Counted from the stretch's first letter, positions 53,489 through 58,816 are shown. The stretch is DNA of 64,000 nucleotides from Halomicroarcula saliterrae (GCF_031624395.1 NZ_JAMQON010000003.1:1-64000), one strand, 5' to 3'. Numbers and translations are program-made. The notes: a model not told the origin generated them from the sequence alone.

Positions 53489-54622
53489 ATGAGCCGGTCT
53501 GGAGCCTTCTGTCCGAAGTGTGGCGACGAGTTCGAGCCACCCGAGGACCGCCCCGAGCTCCCGGGCACACAGCGGGACTCCGAGCGGGTCCTCTGTGACG
53601 CCTGTTACTTCGAGGAGTTCGACCTCGTGGACGCCCCCGAGACCATCGAGGTCCGAGTGTGTGCACAGTGTGGGGCGGTCCACAAGGGGAACCGCTGGGT
53701 CGACGTGGGCGCCGAAGATTACACCGACATCGCCGTCGAACAGGTCAGCGAGGCGCTGGGCGTCCACGTCGACGCCGAGGCCGTCGAGTGGCAGGTCGCG
53801 CCCGAGCAGCTCGACCAGAACAACATCCGGATGCACACGGAGTTCTCGGGCGTCGTCCGGGGCATCCCAATCACCGAGCAGGTCAGCGTCCCCGTGCGCA
53901 TCGCTCGCGAGACCTGCAAGCGTTGCGGGAAGATCGCCGGAGGGTCGTTCGCCAGCGTCGTGCAGGTCAGAGCCGACGAGCGGGACCCGACCGACGACGA
54001 GGTCGACCGGGCGAAGACCATCGCCGAGGAGTACGTCGCCGAGCGCGAGGCCACCGGCGACCGCAACGCCTTCATCACCGAGACCAACGAGGTCGACGAC
54101 GGGCTGAACATGAAGATATCGACCAACCAGATGGGCCACGGCATCGCCAAGCGCATCACGGCCCAGCTGGGCGGGGGCTACTCCGACTCGAAGCGCCTCA
54201 TCACCGAGGACGAGGACGGCCAGAAGCTCTACCGGATGACCTACGCGGTCCGCTTGCCGCGGTACCGACAGGGCGAGCTCATCGACCCCGAGGACGGCGA
54301 CGGCCCCGTCCTCGTCCGCTCGGTCCAGGGGAACCTCAAGGGCGTGCGGCTGGCGACCGGTGAGAAGTACGAGGCCCAGTTCGAGGAGGGCGAGGCCCCC
54401 GACGCCGACCGGCTCGGCTTCCGCGACGACGGCGAGCCGACGACGCTCGTCGCCGTCGAGGACGAAAACGCCGTGCAGGTGCTCGACCCGGAGACGTTCG
54501 AGAGCAAGACCGTGCCGCGGCCGGACTATCTCGACACCGACGCCGACGAGGTGCCGGTGGTCAAGAGCCGCGCCGGCCTGCACGTGCTGCCGGCGGCCGA
54601 CGACGCTACCGACGGGGAGTGA
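53489..54622 (+). CDS. nmd3: NMD3-family ribosome-export protein homolog
   Basis: The 377-residue protein has the NMD3 N-terminal zinc modules: FCPKCGDEF..LCDACYFEEF and VRVCAQCGAVHKGNRW, followed by CKRCGKIAGG near residue 150. These are the parts that bind the large ribosomal subunit in eukaryotes. Archaeal NMD3 lacks a nuclear-export signal, and its role in ribosome assembly is inferred. The ATG at 53489 is well placed. The end overlaps the HPr-kinase-like gene by 17 bases on the other strand. Confidence 0.92.
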   Translation: MSRSGAFCPKCGDEFEPPEDRPELPGTQRDSERVLCDACYFEEFDLVDAPETIEVRVCAQCGAVHKGNRWVDVGAEDYTDIAVEQVSEALGVHVDAEAVEWQVAPEQLDQNNIRMHTEFSGVVRGIPITEQVSVPVRIARETCKRCGKIAGGSFASVVQVRADERDPTDDEVDRAKTIAEEYVAEREATGDRNAFITETNEVDDGLNMKISTNQMGHGIAKRITAQLGGGYSDSKRLITEDEDGQKLYRMTYAVRLPRYRQGELIDPEDGDGPVLVRSVQGNLKGVRLATGEKYEAQFEEGEAPDADRLGFRDDGEPTTLVAVEDENAVQVLDPETFESKTVPRPDYLDTDADEVPVVKSRAGLHVLPAADDATDGE

Positions 54623-55577
54623 CGTCCGAGTCGGGGGCAGGGCGCTCGGCGAGGTCGCGTTCGACCCTCGCTACGAGTGTCTCAAGTGCGTCCAGCGAGC
54701 GCGGCCGGGTGAGCCGACAGACGTCGACGGCATCGGCCAGCGTCCCGCAGGCGTCGAGGTGTGCCTGCTGTGCCGTCCGGTCCGTGGCCCGATAGATGGC
54801 GTAGCTCGCTTTGAGGAGCCCGAAGACCCCCCGCTGGGCCGACAGTCGCTCGATATCGACGTCGGCCCCGTCGGTCAGGAGATACACCGCCGCCAGTGGG
54901 TACGTGCCCGCTGCGAAGCGGTCCTCGACCGCCACTTCGGCCGTCGCCTCGCTCGACTGGCCGAGCCCCAGCGCCGCGCTCGCGCGGGCGTCGACGCTGA
55001 GAGACGGTGCGCCCGAGGGGACGACTGGCCTCCCGGCCGGGTCACACGGGAGCACGTCGTCCGTCAGCAGGTCGTGCCCGGCGGCGAGGAACGCACCGGC
55101 AGTGGTCGACTTCCCGCGTCCGGACGGACCCGCGAAGGCCACGGCGCGGCCGTCGATAACCACTGCGCTCGCGTGCAAGACGACGGCCCCCTGCTGGACG
55201 AGTGCCGACCGCAGACCCGGCCCCCGGACGAACCGCCGTCGAGCAGCCGCGGTGCTCTCGGGTACCGGTGACAGCGTCAGCTCCCTGCCGTCACGAATCC
55301 GCAGCGTCCCGACGCCGTCGTAGAACCAGTAGAACGTCCCGGAGGCCGTCTCGTGGACGGTGAACTCCCCTTCGGGGTCGGCGTAGACACGAGTCGAGGG
55401 GTCGGGAATCTCGGTCGGGTCCGCGGGGAGGGACCCGCGGTCGATGCGTATTTCGGGGCCGACGTGTCCGCTGTCGCCCGGCTCCCGAAGCGACGGGAGC
55501 CGTATCGAGGACCGAACCCGCCGGTCGAAAACAGTGTATTCGCGGGGCTGAGCGTCCGTCGGTACCGTGGGTGTCAC
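54606..55577 (-). CDS. HPr-kinase-like protein of the lasso cluster
   Basis: The 323-residue protein has the layout of lasso-cluster HPr kinase homologs. A beta-rich N-terminal part (ETASGTFYWFYDGVGTLRIR) is followed by LVQQGAVVLHASAVVIDGRA and the P-loop FAGPSGRGKSTTAGAFLAAG near residue 150. HDLLTDDVLP then carries the acidic metal site. Such kinases phosphorylate the precursor peptide in some bacterial lasso systems. It uses a GTG start at 55577, 12 bases after the precursor stop. That the peptide is its substrate is inference; the known enzymes modify a C-terminal Ser, and this precursor ends in Asn. Confidence 0.82.
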   Translation of the reverse strand: MTPTVPTDAQPREYTVFDRRVRSSIRLPSLREPGDSGHVGPEIRIDRGSLPADPTEIPDPSTRVYADPEGEFTVHETASGTFYWFYDGVGTLRIRDGRELTLSPVPESTAAARRRFVRGPGLRSALVQQGAVVLHASAVVIDGRAVAFAGPSGRGKSTTAGAFLAAGHDLLTDDVLPCDPAGRPVVPSGAPSLSVDARASAALGLGQSSEATAEVAVEDRFAAGTYPLAAVYLLTDGADVDIERLSAQRGVFGLLKASYAIYRATDRTAQQAHLDACGTLADAVDVCRLTRPRSLDALETLVARVERDLAERPAPDSDVTPRR

Positions 55578-55589
55578 GCCGCCCGGCAG

Positions 55590-55721
55590 TTAGTTGCCCA
55601 GGCCGCGGCCGTTGTTGCCGGTCGTACCCGAGTTCCCGTCGACGCGGGAGAAGTGCCGTCCTTCAGTGACCGTTTCGATGGGACCGAGCGTCGCGATTTC
55701 GGGGGGTTCGTACGCTTTCAT
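55590..55721 (-). CDS. Lasso peptide precursor
   Basis: This 43-residue peptide starts MKAYEPPEIATLGPIETVTE. The leader fits YxxPx(L/I)xxxGxxxxxT exactly: Tyr4, Pro7, Ile9, Gly13 and Thr19. Thr is expected next to last in the leader, so the core starts at Gly21. The core begins GRHFSRVDG and ends GRGLGN (23 residues). Asp at core position 8 allows a Gly1-Asp8 macrolactam ring; the tail is Gly/Asn/Thr-rich. The cyclase gene lies 66 bases upstream and the kinase gene 12 bases downstream, in one direction. A TATA-like TTGTATCC lies about 25 bases upstream of the ATG. Confidence 0.88.
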   Translation of the reverse strand: MKAYEPPEIATLGPIETVTEGRHFSRVDGNSGTTGNNGRGLGN

Positions 55722-55787
55722 ATGCTCGTATCTTGGCGGCCGGATACAAGAAGATTACGGCCAGTAGACCCCGGAATATACGCCGCG

Positions 55788-57659
55788 TTACGAGGGGATT
55801 CGCTGTAGCCACCGTTCGAGCGTCGTCGCCATGGCCAGGGTTCTGGCGTCGCTCGCGGTCAGGCCGTTCCGGAGCCGCCCGACGGCGTTCGCGAGCGCGT
55901 CGCCGTCGAGATAGCGACCGACTGCCGGCTCGCCGTCGGCCAGCGTCCGCTCGACGAGGTCGGTGTCGTATCGCTGGAGGCCGTAGACGACGTTAGGCGA
56001 GAACTCGGCCTTGTCGGTCCGGTCGCGGACAGCCGCGGGCAGGACGTCTGCCAGCGCCCGCCTGACGATGGTCCGGTCGAGGCCGTCGCTGACGGTGTGT
56101 CCGGGCGGGAGCGCCACGGCGAACTCGACGAGCCGCTTGTCGAAGTACGGGAACCGCGGTTCGACGCCGTGTGCCGCCCCCGCGATATCGTTGAGTTCGA
56201 GGTTGAACGCCGGCTCGTCCGTCGTCAGCGCCCGCCGGCGAATCGCCCGCTGTGTCCGCGGTTGGCCGCGGCGCTGGTCGGCAGCGATGCGGTCGACGAG
56301 CCCGGACCGACGGGCGAACCCGCCGTCGAGCGGCGCAAACGCCATGTCGAGGTAGTCCGCCTCGTCGAAGCGCCGGTGGTAGAGCCGCCGGAGCCGGTCG
56401 GGCACCAGCGGTCGAGCGATGTCGTCCCACAGCGCGTCCCGGGCGTCGAGCCACGGGTAGTTGTCCAGATACCCCCGGAACTCGCGGGCGAACGTCGGGA
56501 GCTGTCCGCGGCCGAGGAGCCCGCGGAGGTAGCCCCGAACGTCGGACCCCATCGTCTGGTCGCCCCCGTAGCCGTTGAGCACGACGCCGGTGTCACACTG
56601 CCCGGCGACCTCGAACAGCCGCCAGATGAGCATACACAGCGAGGGGTAGTAGGGCTGGCCGCGGTGGTCGAGATGCCTGTCGAGCCCGACCAGCGGGCCG
56701 ATTCCGTCGCCGTCGACGTAGTGGGGGTCGAAGGCGCCGCTGCCGAGGACAGCGTCGATGTAGCGCCCCTCGTCGCAGGCCTCGACGGTGTCGAAGACGG
56801 CCGAGAACGTCCGCAGCGGCGGCGCTCCGGCCGCGGCTCGCTGTGTGGCGGCGACACCGGCTATCGAGGAGGAGTCCAGCCCGCCGGAGAGCAGCGACCC
56901 CACCGGCCCGACGCTGCGGCGGCGGTCGGCGACCGCCCGCTCGAACAGGTCCCGGAACCGCTCGTCGTAGGCGGAGCGGTGGGCCTCGGGCAGCGGGTCG
57001 ACCTCGGAGAGCGACCAGTACCGCGTGCGGTCGAGCCCGTCGTCGGTCACGACCAGCCGGTGGGCCGGCGGGAGCCGCGAGACGTCCTCGTAGAACGTCC
57101 GCGAGGAGTCGGCGAACCGGCCCACCAGGAAGTCGCCGATTCGGTGTTCGTCCGGGGCCGACCGCACGCCGTCGAGTCCCAGCAGTGGCCCCGGCTCCGA
57201 GGCGAGCGCGACGCCGCCGTCGGCCGTCTCGGCGTAGTACACCGGCTTGACACCCATGTGGTCCCGGGCACAGACGAGCCGTCGACGCTCGGGGTCCCAG
57301 ACGACGGCTGCGAACGCGCCGACGAGGTGACGGGGGTAGTCGACCCCCCAGCGGCGGTAGGCGTGGGCGACGAGGTCGGTGTCGGGCACCTCGCTCGCGA
57401 CGCCGAACGCCGCGCACAGCTCGGCCCGGTTGTCCAGCCGCAGGGCCGCGGTGACGACGACGCCGTCGACCTGTCTCGGGAACGACCGGCCGCGGGCTTC
57501 GGGGAGCGTGCAGTTGTGCTGGTGGCCGAGTGCGACGGCGTCGCCACACCAGTACCCCGACCCCTGTGGCCCCCGATGGGACTGGGCCGCCGTCAGCTGC
57601 CGAACCGCTGGCGCCGCCGAGGTGCCGTCCCCACACAGCACCGCGCTGATTCCACTCAC
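55788..57659 (-). CDS. Lasso peptide cyclase, asparagine-synthetase-like
   Basis: The 623-residue protein has an inactive glutaminase-type N-terminal domain (VSGISAVLCG, SHRGPQGSGYW, RLDNRAELCAAFG; the catalytic Cys2 is absent). The ATP-pyrophosphatase core follows, with LLSGGLDSSSIAGVA, LNGYGGDQTMGSD and RFPYFDKRLVEFAVALP. This combination next to a YxxP-leader precursor marks a lasso cyclase, which activates the ring Asp or Glu and closes the macrolactam. The GTG at 57659 is chosen because it gives the family start [M/V]SGI; an AAATTATT box lies about 30 bases upstream. It is divergent from taw2. Confidence 0.9.
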   Translation of the reverse strand: MSGISAVLCGDGTSAAPAVRQLTAAQSHRGPQGSGYWCGDAVALGHQHNCTLPEARGRSFPRQVDGVVVTAALRLDNRAELCAAFGVASEVPDTDLVAHAYRRWGVDYPRHLVGAFAAVVWDPERRRLVCARDHMGVKPVYYAETADGGVALASEPGPLLGLDGVRSAPDEHRIGDFLVGRFADSSRTFYEDVSRLPPAHRLVVTDDGLDRTRYWSLSEVDPLPEAHRSAYDERFRDLFERAVADRRRSVGPVGSLLSGGLDSSSIAGVAATQRAAAGAPPLRTFSAVFDTVEACDEGRYIDAVLGSGAFDPHYVDGDGIGPLVGLDRHLDHRGQPYYPSLCMLIWRLFEVAGQCDTGVVLNGYGGDQTMGSDVRGYLRGLLGRGQLPTFAREFRGYLDNYPWLDARDALWDDIARPLVPDRLRRLYHRRFDEADYLDMAFAPLDGGFARRSGLVDRIAADQRRGQPRTQRAIRRRALTTDEPAFNLELNDIAGAAHGVEPRFPYFDKRLVEFAVALPPGHTVSDGLDRTIVRRALADVLPAAVRDRTDKAEFSPNVVYGLQRYDTDLVERTLADGEPAVGRYLDGDALANAVGRLRNGLTASDARTLAMATTLERWLQRIPS

Positions 57660-57763
57660 TGGCACGCAGTTACCGCAGGGCGGCTGAATAATTTTCGGCG
57701 GCGCTCGCCACGAACGGAGCGTGACGATAACGGTTTGTCCGTCGAGTCCGTCCACCCGCCAAC

Positions 57764-58816
57764 GTGGAATCACAGGACTGCACCGACCTCGCCGTCGTGG
57801 TCGCCAAGCCACGGACCGAATCGGTCATCGACGCGCTCGACACGGAGGGGGTCTACGACGCCGACCGGAGCGTCCAGCCGTGGGACGCGGAGAGCGTCGC
57901 CGTCCCCGTGACCGCGCCGCCCGAGACCGTCGAGGTCCGCGAGGTCGTCCGGCAGGTCGGCGAGCGGCGGCTGCGGAACCTGGCGGACCACCTCCGCCAG
58001 CGCGGGTGGAGCGAGGCCGAAATCGACGCGGCCCCGTCCTCGTGGGCGGCCATCGGCAGCGTCGTCCTCGTCGAACTGGGCGAGACGCCCCGGCCGGCGG
58101 CGGTCGGCGAGGCGCTGCTCGCCCTGCACGGCGAGGCCGACACGGTGCTCGCTCGCAACGGCATCGACGGCGTCCACCGCGAGCCCGACGTGACCGTCAT
58201 CGCCGGCGAGGGCGACACCGAGACGGTCCACACGGAACACGGGACCGAGTACGCGCTGGACCTCGCCGAGGTGATGTTCTCACCGGGGAACAAGGCCGAG
58301 CGGGCCCGGATGGGCGAGCGGGTGCAGGCCGGCGAGCGGGTGCTCGACATGTTCGCCGGCATCGGCTACTTCACGCTCCCGATGGCCCGGGCCGGCGCGG
58401 AGGTCACCGCCGTCGAGCACAACCCGACGGCCTTCCGCTATCTCGTCGAGAACACGATGCGCAACGGCGTCGACGGGCTGGTCCACCCCTACCGAGCGGA
58501 CTGTCGTGACGTCGTCGAGGCGGGCATCGACGGCGGCCCGGTCGACCGCGTGGTGATGGGCCACTACGAGGCGAGCGAGCCGGACGGCGACGGCGGCTAC
58601 GCGTATCTCGACCACGCCCTCGACGCGCTCGCACCCGGCGGGGTCGTCCACGTCCACGAGACGACCCCGGAGGCGCTGGTGTTCGAGCGCCCCGTCGAGC
58701 GCCTGACGGCCGCGGCGGTCGCTGCGGGCCGCTCGGTCGAGGTGCTGGACACCAGACGCGTCAAGAGCCACAGCGAGGGCGTCGCCCACGTCGTCGTGGA
58801 CGCGAGAATCGAGTAG
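57764..58816 (+). CDS. Trm5/Taw2-type tRNA-modifying enzyme
   Basis: The 350-residue protein has an N-terminal region (residues 1-110) and a Rossmann domain with VLDMFAGIGYFTLPMARAGA, the SAM site, then AVEHNPTAFRYLVEN. This is the layout of Trm5 and of Taw2, which work on the base next to the anticodon of tRNA-Phe. The motif at the catalytic place is MGHYEAS, not the NPPY or NLP type, which favours the Taw2 (aminocarboxypropyl transfer) branch over methylation. The start is GTG at 57764. It converges on cetZ, with four bases between stops. Confidence 0.82.
   Translation: MESQDCTDLAVVVAKPRTESVIDALDTEGVYDADRSVQPWDAESVAVPVTAPPETVEVREVVRQVGERRLRNLADHLRQRGWSEAEIDAAPSSWAAIGSVVLVELGETPRPAAVGEALLALHGEADTVLARNGIDGVHREPDVTVIAGEGDTETVHTEHGTEYALDLAEVMFSPGNKAERARMGERVQAGERVLDMFAGIGYFTLPMARAGAEVTAVEHNPTAFRYLVENTMRNGVDGLVHPYRADCRDVVEAGIDGGPVDRVVMGHYEASEPDGDGGYAYLDHALDALAPGGVVHVHETTPEALVFERPVERLTAAAVAAGRSVEVLDTRRVKSHSEGVAHVVVDARIE

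Follow-up and report, generated by a model that had tools for sequence, protein, structure and literature searches.

The analysed window, a stretch of 64,000 nucleotides from the haloarchaeon Halomicroarcula saliterrae (NZ_JAMQON010000003.1:1-64000), carries on its minus strand (54606-57659) three genes, which encode in order a lasso-type macrolactam cyclase, a precursor peptide and an HprK-like kinase and are separated by intergenic gaps of 66 and 12 bases. The unit is read here, with a probability of roughly 0.6, as a lasso-peptide satellite operon that would depend on B proteins encoded elsewhere in the genome, and the leader-binding (RRE) protein B1 and the leader-cutting protein B2 would most likely be borrowed from a cluster on contig C6 of the same genome. 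An earlier description made from the DNA alone (the sequence-only reading) had proposed a lasso-peptide cluster at this site; the three co-directional open reading frames (ORFs) were recovered with the same spacing, and the cyclase, precursor and kinase stand, but with B1 and B2 missing from the locus, and their only strong copies on another contig, the unit falls short of a full lasso cluster. The parts of the unit are as follows:

55788..57659, minus strand: lasso-type macrolactam cyclase (C protein), 623 amino acids, GTG start, VSGISAV... (NF033535, PF00733, tree, alignment)
55590..55721, minus strand: precursor (A), 43 amino acids, MKAYEPPEIATLGPIETVTE / GRHFSRVDGNSGTTGNNGRGLGN (leader pattern, conservation in four modules, codon comparison, NF033521)
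55662..55721, minus strand: leader, residues 1-20, Y4..P7.I9...G13.....T19, E20 (sequence)
55593..55661, minus strand: predicted core, 23 amino acids, Gly1 to Asn23, predicted cyclic mass 2311.09 Da
55638..55661, minus strand: ring of 8 residues, GRHFSRVD, predicted to be closed as a macrolactam between the Gly1 amine and the Asp8 side chain (by inference)
54606..55577, minus strand: HprK-like kinase (K), 323 amino acids, GTG start (HprK_rel_A, HprK/P profile match, AlphaFold model)

No B1 or B2, the pair that marks a lasso cluster, was found beside the window unit. Family searches of the whole genome, on which the copy numbers rest, returned one PqqD/RRE protein (B1) and one strong, transglutaminase-like B2, both on contig C6 (at ~211.2 and ~210.9 kb, respectively); another Transglut_core3 match, elsewhere in the genome, is weak and falls within a frame of 798 codons. 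The genes on C6 form a complete paeninodin-like lasso cluster, with two divergent cyclases, two precursors, a kinase and an ABC exporter as well as a glycosyltransferase, B2, B1 and a nucleotidyltransferase-like gene. Foreign contamination as the source of C6 was considered and rejected; its flanks best match G022, G009 and G017, the same genus relatives that have the closest copies of nmd3, the gene next to the window unit, so that C6 is assigned to the same organism.

The same cyclase-precursor-kinase set, referred to here as the W-type module, is also present in Natronobiforma cellulositropha (L100), Natronoglomus mannanivorans (L101) and Salinadaptatus halalkaliphilus (L104), all annotated from raw DNA, where a small ORF lies between a homologous cyclase (51-52% identical) and a homologous kinase (~38-42%), with a common core and a common gene order. 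In these relatives, however, the module sits in a complete cluster with B1, B2, an ABC exporter and a nucleotidyltransferase, whereas the window unit stands alone between nmd3 and taw2. Each of the three has one B1 and one B2 per genome alongside two cyclase/precursor sets, and one pair for several sets makes service in trans the simplest reading of the window unit. The B1 of Salinadaptatus lies at the opposite end of the cluster from the W-type module, B1/B2 of genome G034 are ~20 kb from the cyclase unit, and lasso RREs outside Bacillota are reported to retain relaxed leader specificity (PMC13381572), in line with such service.

Two further arrangements were seen outside the W-type set. Halorientalis persicus (L102 10001-13110, NZ_FOCX01000020) has a second cyclase-precursor-kinase unit without B1/B2 within 10 kb, and its sole B2 is on another contig, beside a second cyclase. 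In Halorubrum kocurii (L114 13494-14579), a full cluster is adjoined by an additional precursor, MEMNSYKKPKISRIGDVEDITESGGTNDNAQCFSRAGKSDDYNPNC, and a neighbouring W-like kinase, a pair that lacks its own cyclase.

For the cyclase, the lasso cyclase model NF033535 is the best NCBIfam model by a lead of 275 bits (E 2e-143, 479 bits; curated cut-off 525), while Asn_synthase PF00733 matches with E 5e-49 and Pfam also names a GATase domain. The N-terminus, (M)SGI, aligns Ser at position 2 with the Cys nucleophile of glutamine-hydrolysing relatives, so that the catalytic Cys2 of asparagine synthetase B is missing, as in lasso cyclases of the asparagine-synthetase superfamily, and the PPi-loop SGGLDSS is retained. 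In a 79-protein tree, built by a quick method and rooted at the midpoint for drawing, the W-type cyclases group together as a clade of four (support 100) on the side that holds cyclases found beside lasso B1/B2 genes, and the MC-start proteins are set apart (support 100). Judged by model match, alignment and tree, the window cyclase is a lasso cyclase, as the sequence-only reading had claimed, and a grouping with ordinary asparagine synthetases, which that reading had named as grounds for abandoning the claim, was not obtained. Also on the lasso side of the tree are two haloarchaeal MSG-start cyclases (L067 9905-11818, genome G157; L069 9848-11686, genome G039) with no recognisable precursor nearby, in genomes where B2 was not found. 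In the halophilic bacterium Salinibacter altiplanensis, a single stretch (L111 2057-13920) encodes B1, B2 and a pair each of lasso cyclases and kinases; one of the cyclases is placed close to the W-type clade with weak support, which may mark a route of exchange linking halophilic bacteria with archaea.

The window as a whole holds 436 ORFs with lengths of 25-130 codons, and the strict leader pattern Y..P.[LIV]...G.....T is present in just one of them, the 43-residue precursor for which an exact lasso leader motif had been reported. The features expected of a lasso precursor are present, namely a Y/W..P.[LIV] leader, Thr at -2, Gly at core position 1 (G21) and Asp/Glu at core positions 7-9 (D28, core 8), although the score against the lasso leader model NF033521 is 14.2 bits (cut-off 19). 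A weak Pfam match to SSURE, below cut-off, was judged to be chance. Across the four modules, leader residues Y4, P7, L12, G13 and T19 and core residues G1, H3, F4, S5, V7 and D8 are invariant, and the first 16 core residues follow GxHFSxVDGNSGTTGN in 4/4. Compared codon by codon with the three relatives, these 16 positions show 0-2 amino-acid changes and 5-7 silent ones, whereas the leader shows 10-11 amino-acid changes and 3-5 silent ones. Since core codons change silently while leader codons change amino acids, the precursor is a real gene beyond chance, and on this comparison the core is more constrained than the leader. Lack of conservation of the small ORF beside cyclase homologues, which had been proposed as a refutation, is thus not what is seen beside the closest homologues, and the anticipated mass of ~2311.1 Da (the 23-residue core minus water) was reproduced on recalculation (2311.09 Da).

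The main haloarchaeal lasso precursor family (L023 12521-13075, L050, L052, L055-L065, L103-L110) has a different layout. The usual Gly1 and Asp/Glu 7-9 are absent; instead these precursors have [N/D/E]-K-x...-D, the first residue and the Asp usually bounding a stretch of 8 residues whose spacing downstream of the leader Thr varies (NKSGSGSD, NKVGNGDD, DKIGDSED, NKEGVASD), followed by TxLxGS[IV]. Going by these stretches, the ring of this family may start at Asn/Asp, or Lys may be used.

The third gene had been described as encoding an HPr-kinase-like protein, and both profiles and fold agree. It matches HprK_rel_A with E 4e-8 (32.6 bits; cut-off 200), and a profile of seven kinase relatives matches Lactobacillus casei HPr kinase/phosphorylase (HprK/P) with E 1e-8. 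An alignment of 18 sequences shows no variation in the kinase motifs His135, P-loop GPSGRGKST (150-158) and Asp173-Asp174. HprK and PEPCK have a common nucleotide-binding fold, and the AlphaFold model (mean predicted local distance difference test score 89.5) matches HprK structures by Foldseek and superposes on PEPCK with a VIA Z of ~16 (root-mean-square deviation 4.2-4.8 Å over ~265 residues). An HprK-like kinase in the operon is a trait of the paeninodin type, in which PadeK-type kinases phosphorylate a C-terminal Ser (PMC9266682). The last residue of W-type precursors is N, R, T or W, which excludes the known paeninodin phosphorylation site and means that the target must differ; the conserved core residues Ser5, Ser11, Thr13 and Thr14 are candidate sites, one of which is probably used. 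For all three genes the right NCBIfam family is named, yet every score is below the curated cut-off, and automatic annotation could therefore miss the unit.

Gene identities, core conservation, the insertion and genome content can be read directly from the sequence; from these and the gene families, the following route is inferred. The 43-residue precursor would be made with its 20-residue Y..P.I...G.....T leader, which the C6 B1 would bind and hand to the C6 B2, and B2 would cut after Glu20, with the leader Thr at -2. The local cyclase would then adenylate the Asp8 side chain and couple it to the newly exposed Gly1 amine; this would close a ring of 8 residues, through which the remaining 15 residues are probably threaded as a tail. 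The local HprK-like kinase would phosphorylate the precursor at a core hydroxyl and not, as PadeK does, at the C-terminus, and the product would be exported by the ABC exporter of the C6 cluster.

Several points weigh against this reading. The use of a C6-type B1 on the window leader is deduced from shared leader residues and from the one-B1 relatives; a C-terminal Ser is lacking in every W-type precursor; no aromatic residue that could serve as a plug is present in the tail, GNSGTTGNNGRGLGN; and in two relatives B1 is encoded directly upstream of the homologous module cyclase, so that the unit in the window may have decayed through loss of B1. The missing plug makes threading less sure than cyclisation, as Arg19 or Leu21 would have to hold the tail. 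The product could be a branched, unthreaded macrolactam or a phosphorylated cyclic peptide other than a lasso, with which the want of bulky tail residues and the dedicated kinase in every W-type module would agree; the cyclase, however, is of the lasso family, the 8-residue Gly-Asp ring spacing is canonical, and Arg or Lys can act as lasso plugs, so that we regard a non-lasso product as unlikely. Closure of a small peptide into a ring or a knotted lasso by this unit is very probable.

It is also rather improbable that the unit is a self-contained minimal lasso operon, in which a cellular protease would trim the leader or the cyclase would accept a leaderless core. There are no B genes at the window locus, and maturation of pseudomycoidin is possible without leader and leader peptidase according to a reference as cited in PMC13381572; yet all four module-bearing genomes also encode B1 and B2, and the leader retains the RRE-binding residues Y4, P7, G13 and T19, which would be needless without an RRE. 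The position of B1 in the two relatives and the absence of the unit from the other genus genomes examined would suit a disused relic, acquired horizontally as a fragment and since deprived of B1, but three intact ORFs with their catalytic motifs and a core that differs from that of Natronoglomus at 0/16 residues despite 6 silent changes make this improbable. An ordinary asparagine synthetase beside an unrelated small ORF, for which the Pfam domain calls might speak, has a negligible chance given the missing N-terminal Cys, the 275-bit lead of the lasso model, the tree position and the conserved precursor.

The genomic setting of the unit, for which a local insertion between the housekeeping genes nmd3 and taw2 had been suspected, is as follows:

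53489..54622, plus strand: nmd3 (left neighbour, host gene, NMD3; PF04981 E 4e-57)
57764..58816, plus strand: taw2 (right neighbour, host gene, TRM5/TYW2 methyltransferase Taw2; PF02475 E 1e-45)
54604..57785, no strand: inserted DNA, approximate extent (nmd3-taw2 adjacency in relatives, boundary alignments, repeat scan)
57687..57695, minus strand: TATA-box-like stretch AAAATTATT, 28-36 nucleotides upstream of the cyclase GTG (read by eye)

Because nmd3 and taw2 adjoin in each of the 29 genus relatives compared at this locus, the three-gene unit is, on this comparison, an insertion between two housekeeping genes. The two genes overlap or lie no more than ~100 nucleotides apart in 28 of the 29, the exception being L088 (~500 nucleotides), and boundary alignments show an overlap in the closest relatives. 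The inserted stretch measures ~3.1-3.2 kb, with boundaries accurate to tens of bases, and the 3' ends of nmd3 and the kinase gene overlap by 17 nucleotides. A scan of the insertion edges for target-site duplications or terminal inverted repeats gave nothing convincing, and 31 other genus genomes contained no close homologue of the window cyclase. On viral contigs, 88 pattern matches held no relative of the cyclase, and hence there is no evidence for its viral carriage; the plasmid search returned Halopiger xanaduensis only (37.6% identity). The stretch AAAATTATT is a possible promoter of a leaderless cyclase transcript.

Among known systems, a close likeness is to the paeninodin/pseudomycoidin-type clusters of Bacillota, which comprise A, C, B1, B2, an HprK-like kinase, a nucleotidyltransferase and an MsbA-like ABC protein. 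Cyclase, HprK-like kinase and leader logic are alike, and the C6 cluster has the whole set, whereas the window unit lacks B1, B2, the nucleotidyltransferase and the ABC protein, has Y and not W in its leader motif and has no C-terminal Ser. Archaeal lasso clusters have already been predicted by genome mining (PMC10093198; antiSMASH survey PMC12144867), and the window unit resembles these predictions in its haloarchaeal RRE/lasso genes. The Halopiger xanaduensis plasmid (NC_015658) has a cyclase of the main, C6-type family, ~38% identical to the window cyclase, with its own B1/B2, and for the RRE cluster of Haloarcula hispanica Boch-4 the text names B1, B2 and a kinase (PMC10093198), which is not a W-type module. 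Linear polyphosphorylated peptides (LPPs) of Bacillota combine an RRE and an HprK-like kinase on YxxP leaders beside lasso clusters (PMC13381572); LPP clusters have no cyclase and have a SipW-like signal peptidase, whereas the window unit has a cyclase and falls outside this class.

Cyclase-less lasso-like clusters were also seen within the genus (L186 9098-9196, L187 10280-10378, L189 9534-9632; related L188, L190, L191), with B1, B2, an HprK-like kinase, a nucleotidyltransferase-like gene and an ABC exporter around a 32-residue precursor, MKEYETPSVETYGTVEEKTNWWDHDDGYGKWS, that ends in Ser. No macrolactam cyclase match was found within the 19-kb locus, and 0/11 other genus species with a B2 of this type over cut-off had a lasso cyclase at E<1e-50. 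These clusters resemble LPPs, which are said to be restricted to Bacillota (PMC13381572).

As far as checked, novelty lies in the W-type core family, in a B-less unit that stands alone at a housekeeping locus and in the pattern of a single B pair. The open-licence literature searched contained no account of a lasso peptide isolated from an archaeon, which makes a bounded unit with a predicted mass a good target, and the missing B1/B2 allow a clean genetic test of whether a single RRE/peptidase pair acts on precursors from other loci. Sub-threshold model scores account for how such units can escape routine annotation. It is about an even bet that haloarchaea follow a hub-and-satellite arrangement, in which one B1/B2 pair per genome would serve several cyclase-precursor-kinase satellites, some inserted at unrelated sites in the chromosome, the one here making a deeply conserved archaeal lasso peptide with a new type of core (GxHFSxVDGNSGTTGN) that the kinase modifies. 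The biological role is likely to be antagonism or signalling among halophiles, and the stricter conservation of the core than of the leader across four haloarchaea suggests that the peptide acts on an unchanging molecular target and is not a toxin of an arms race.

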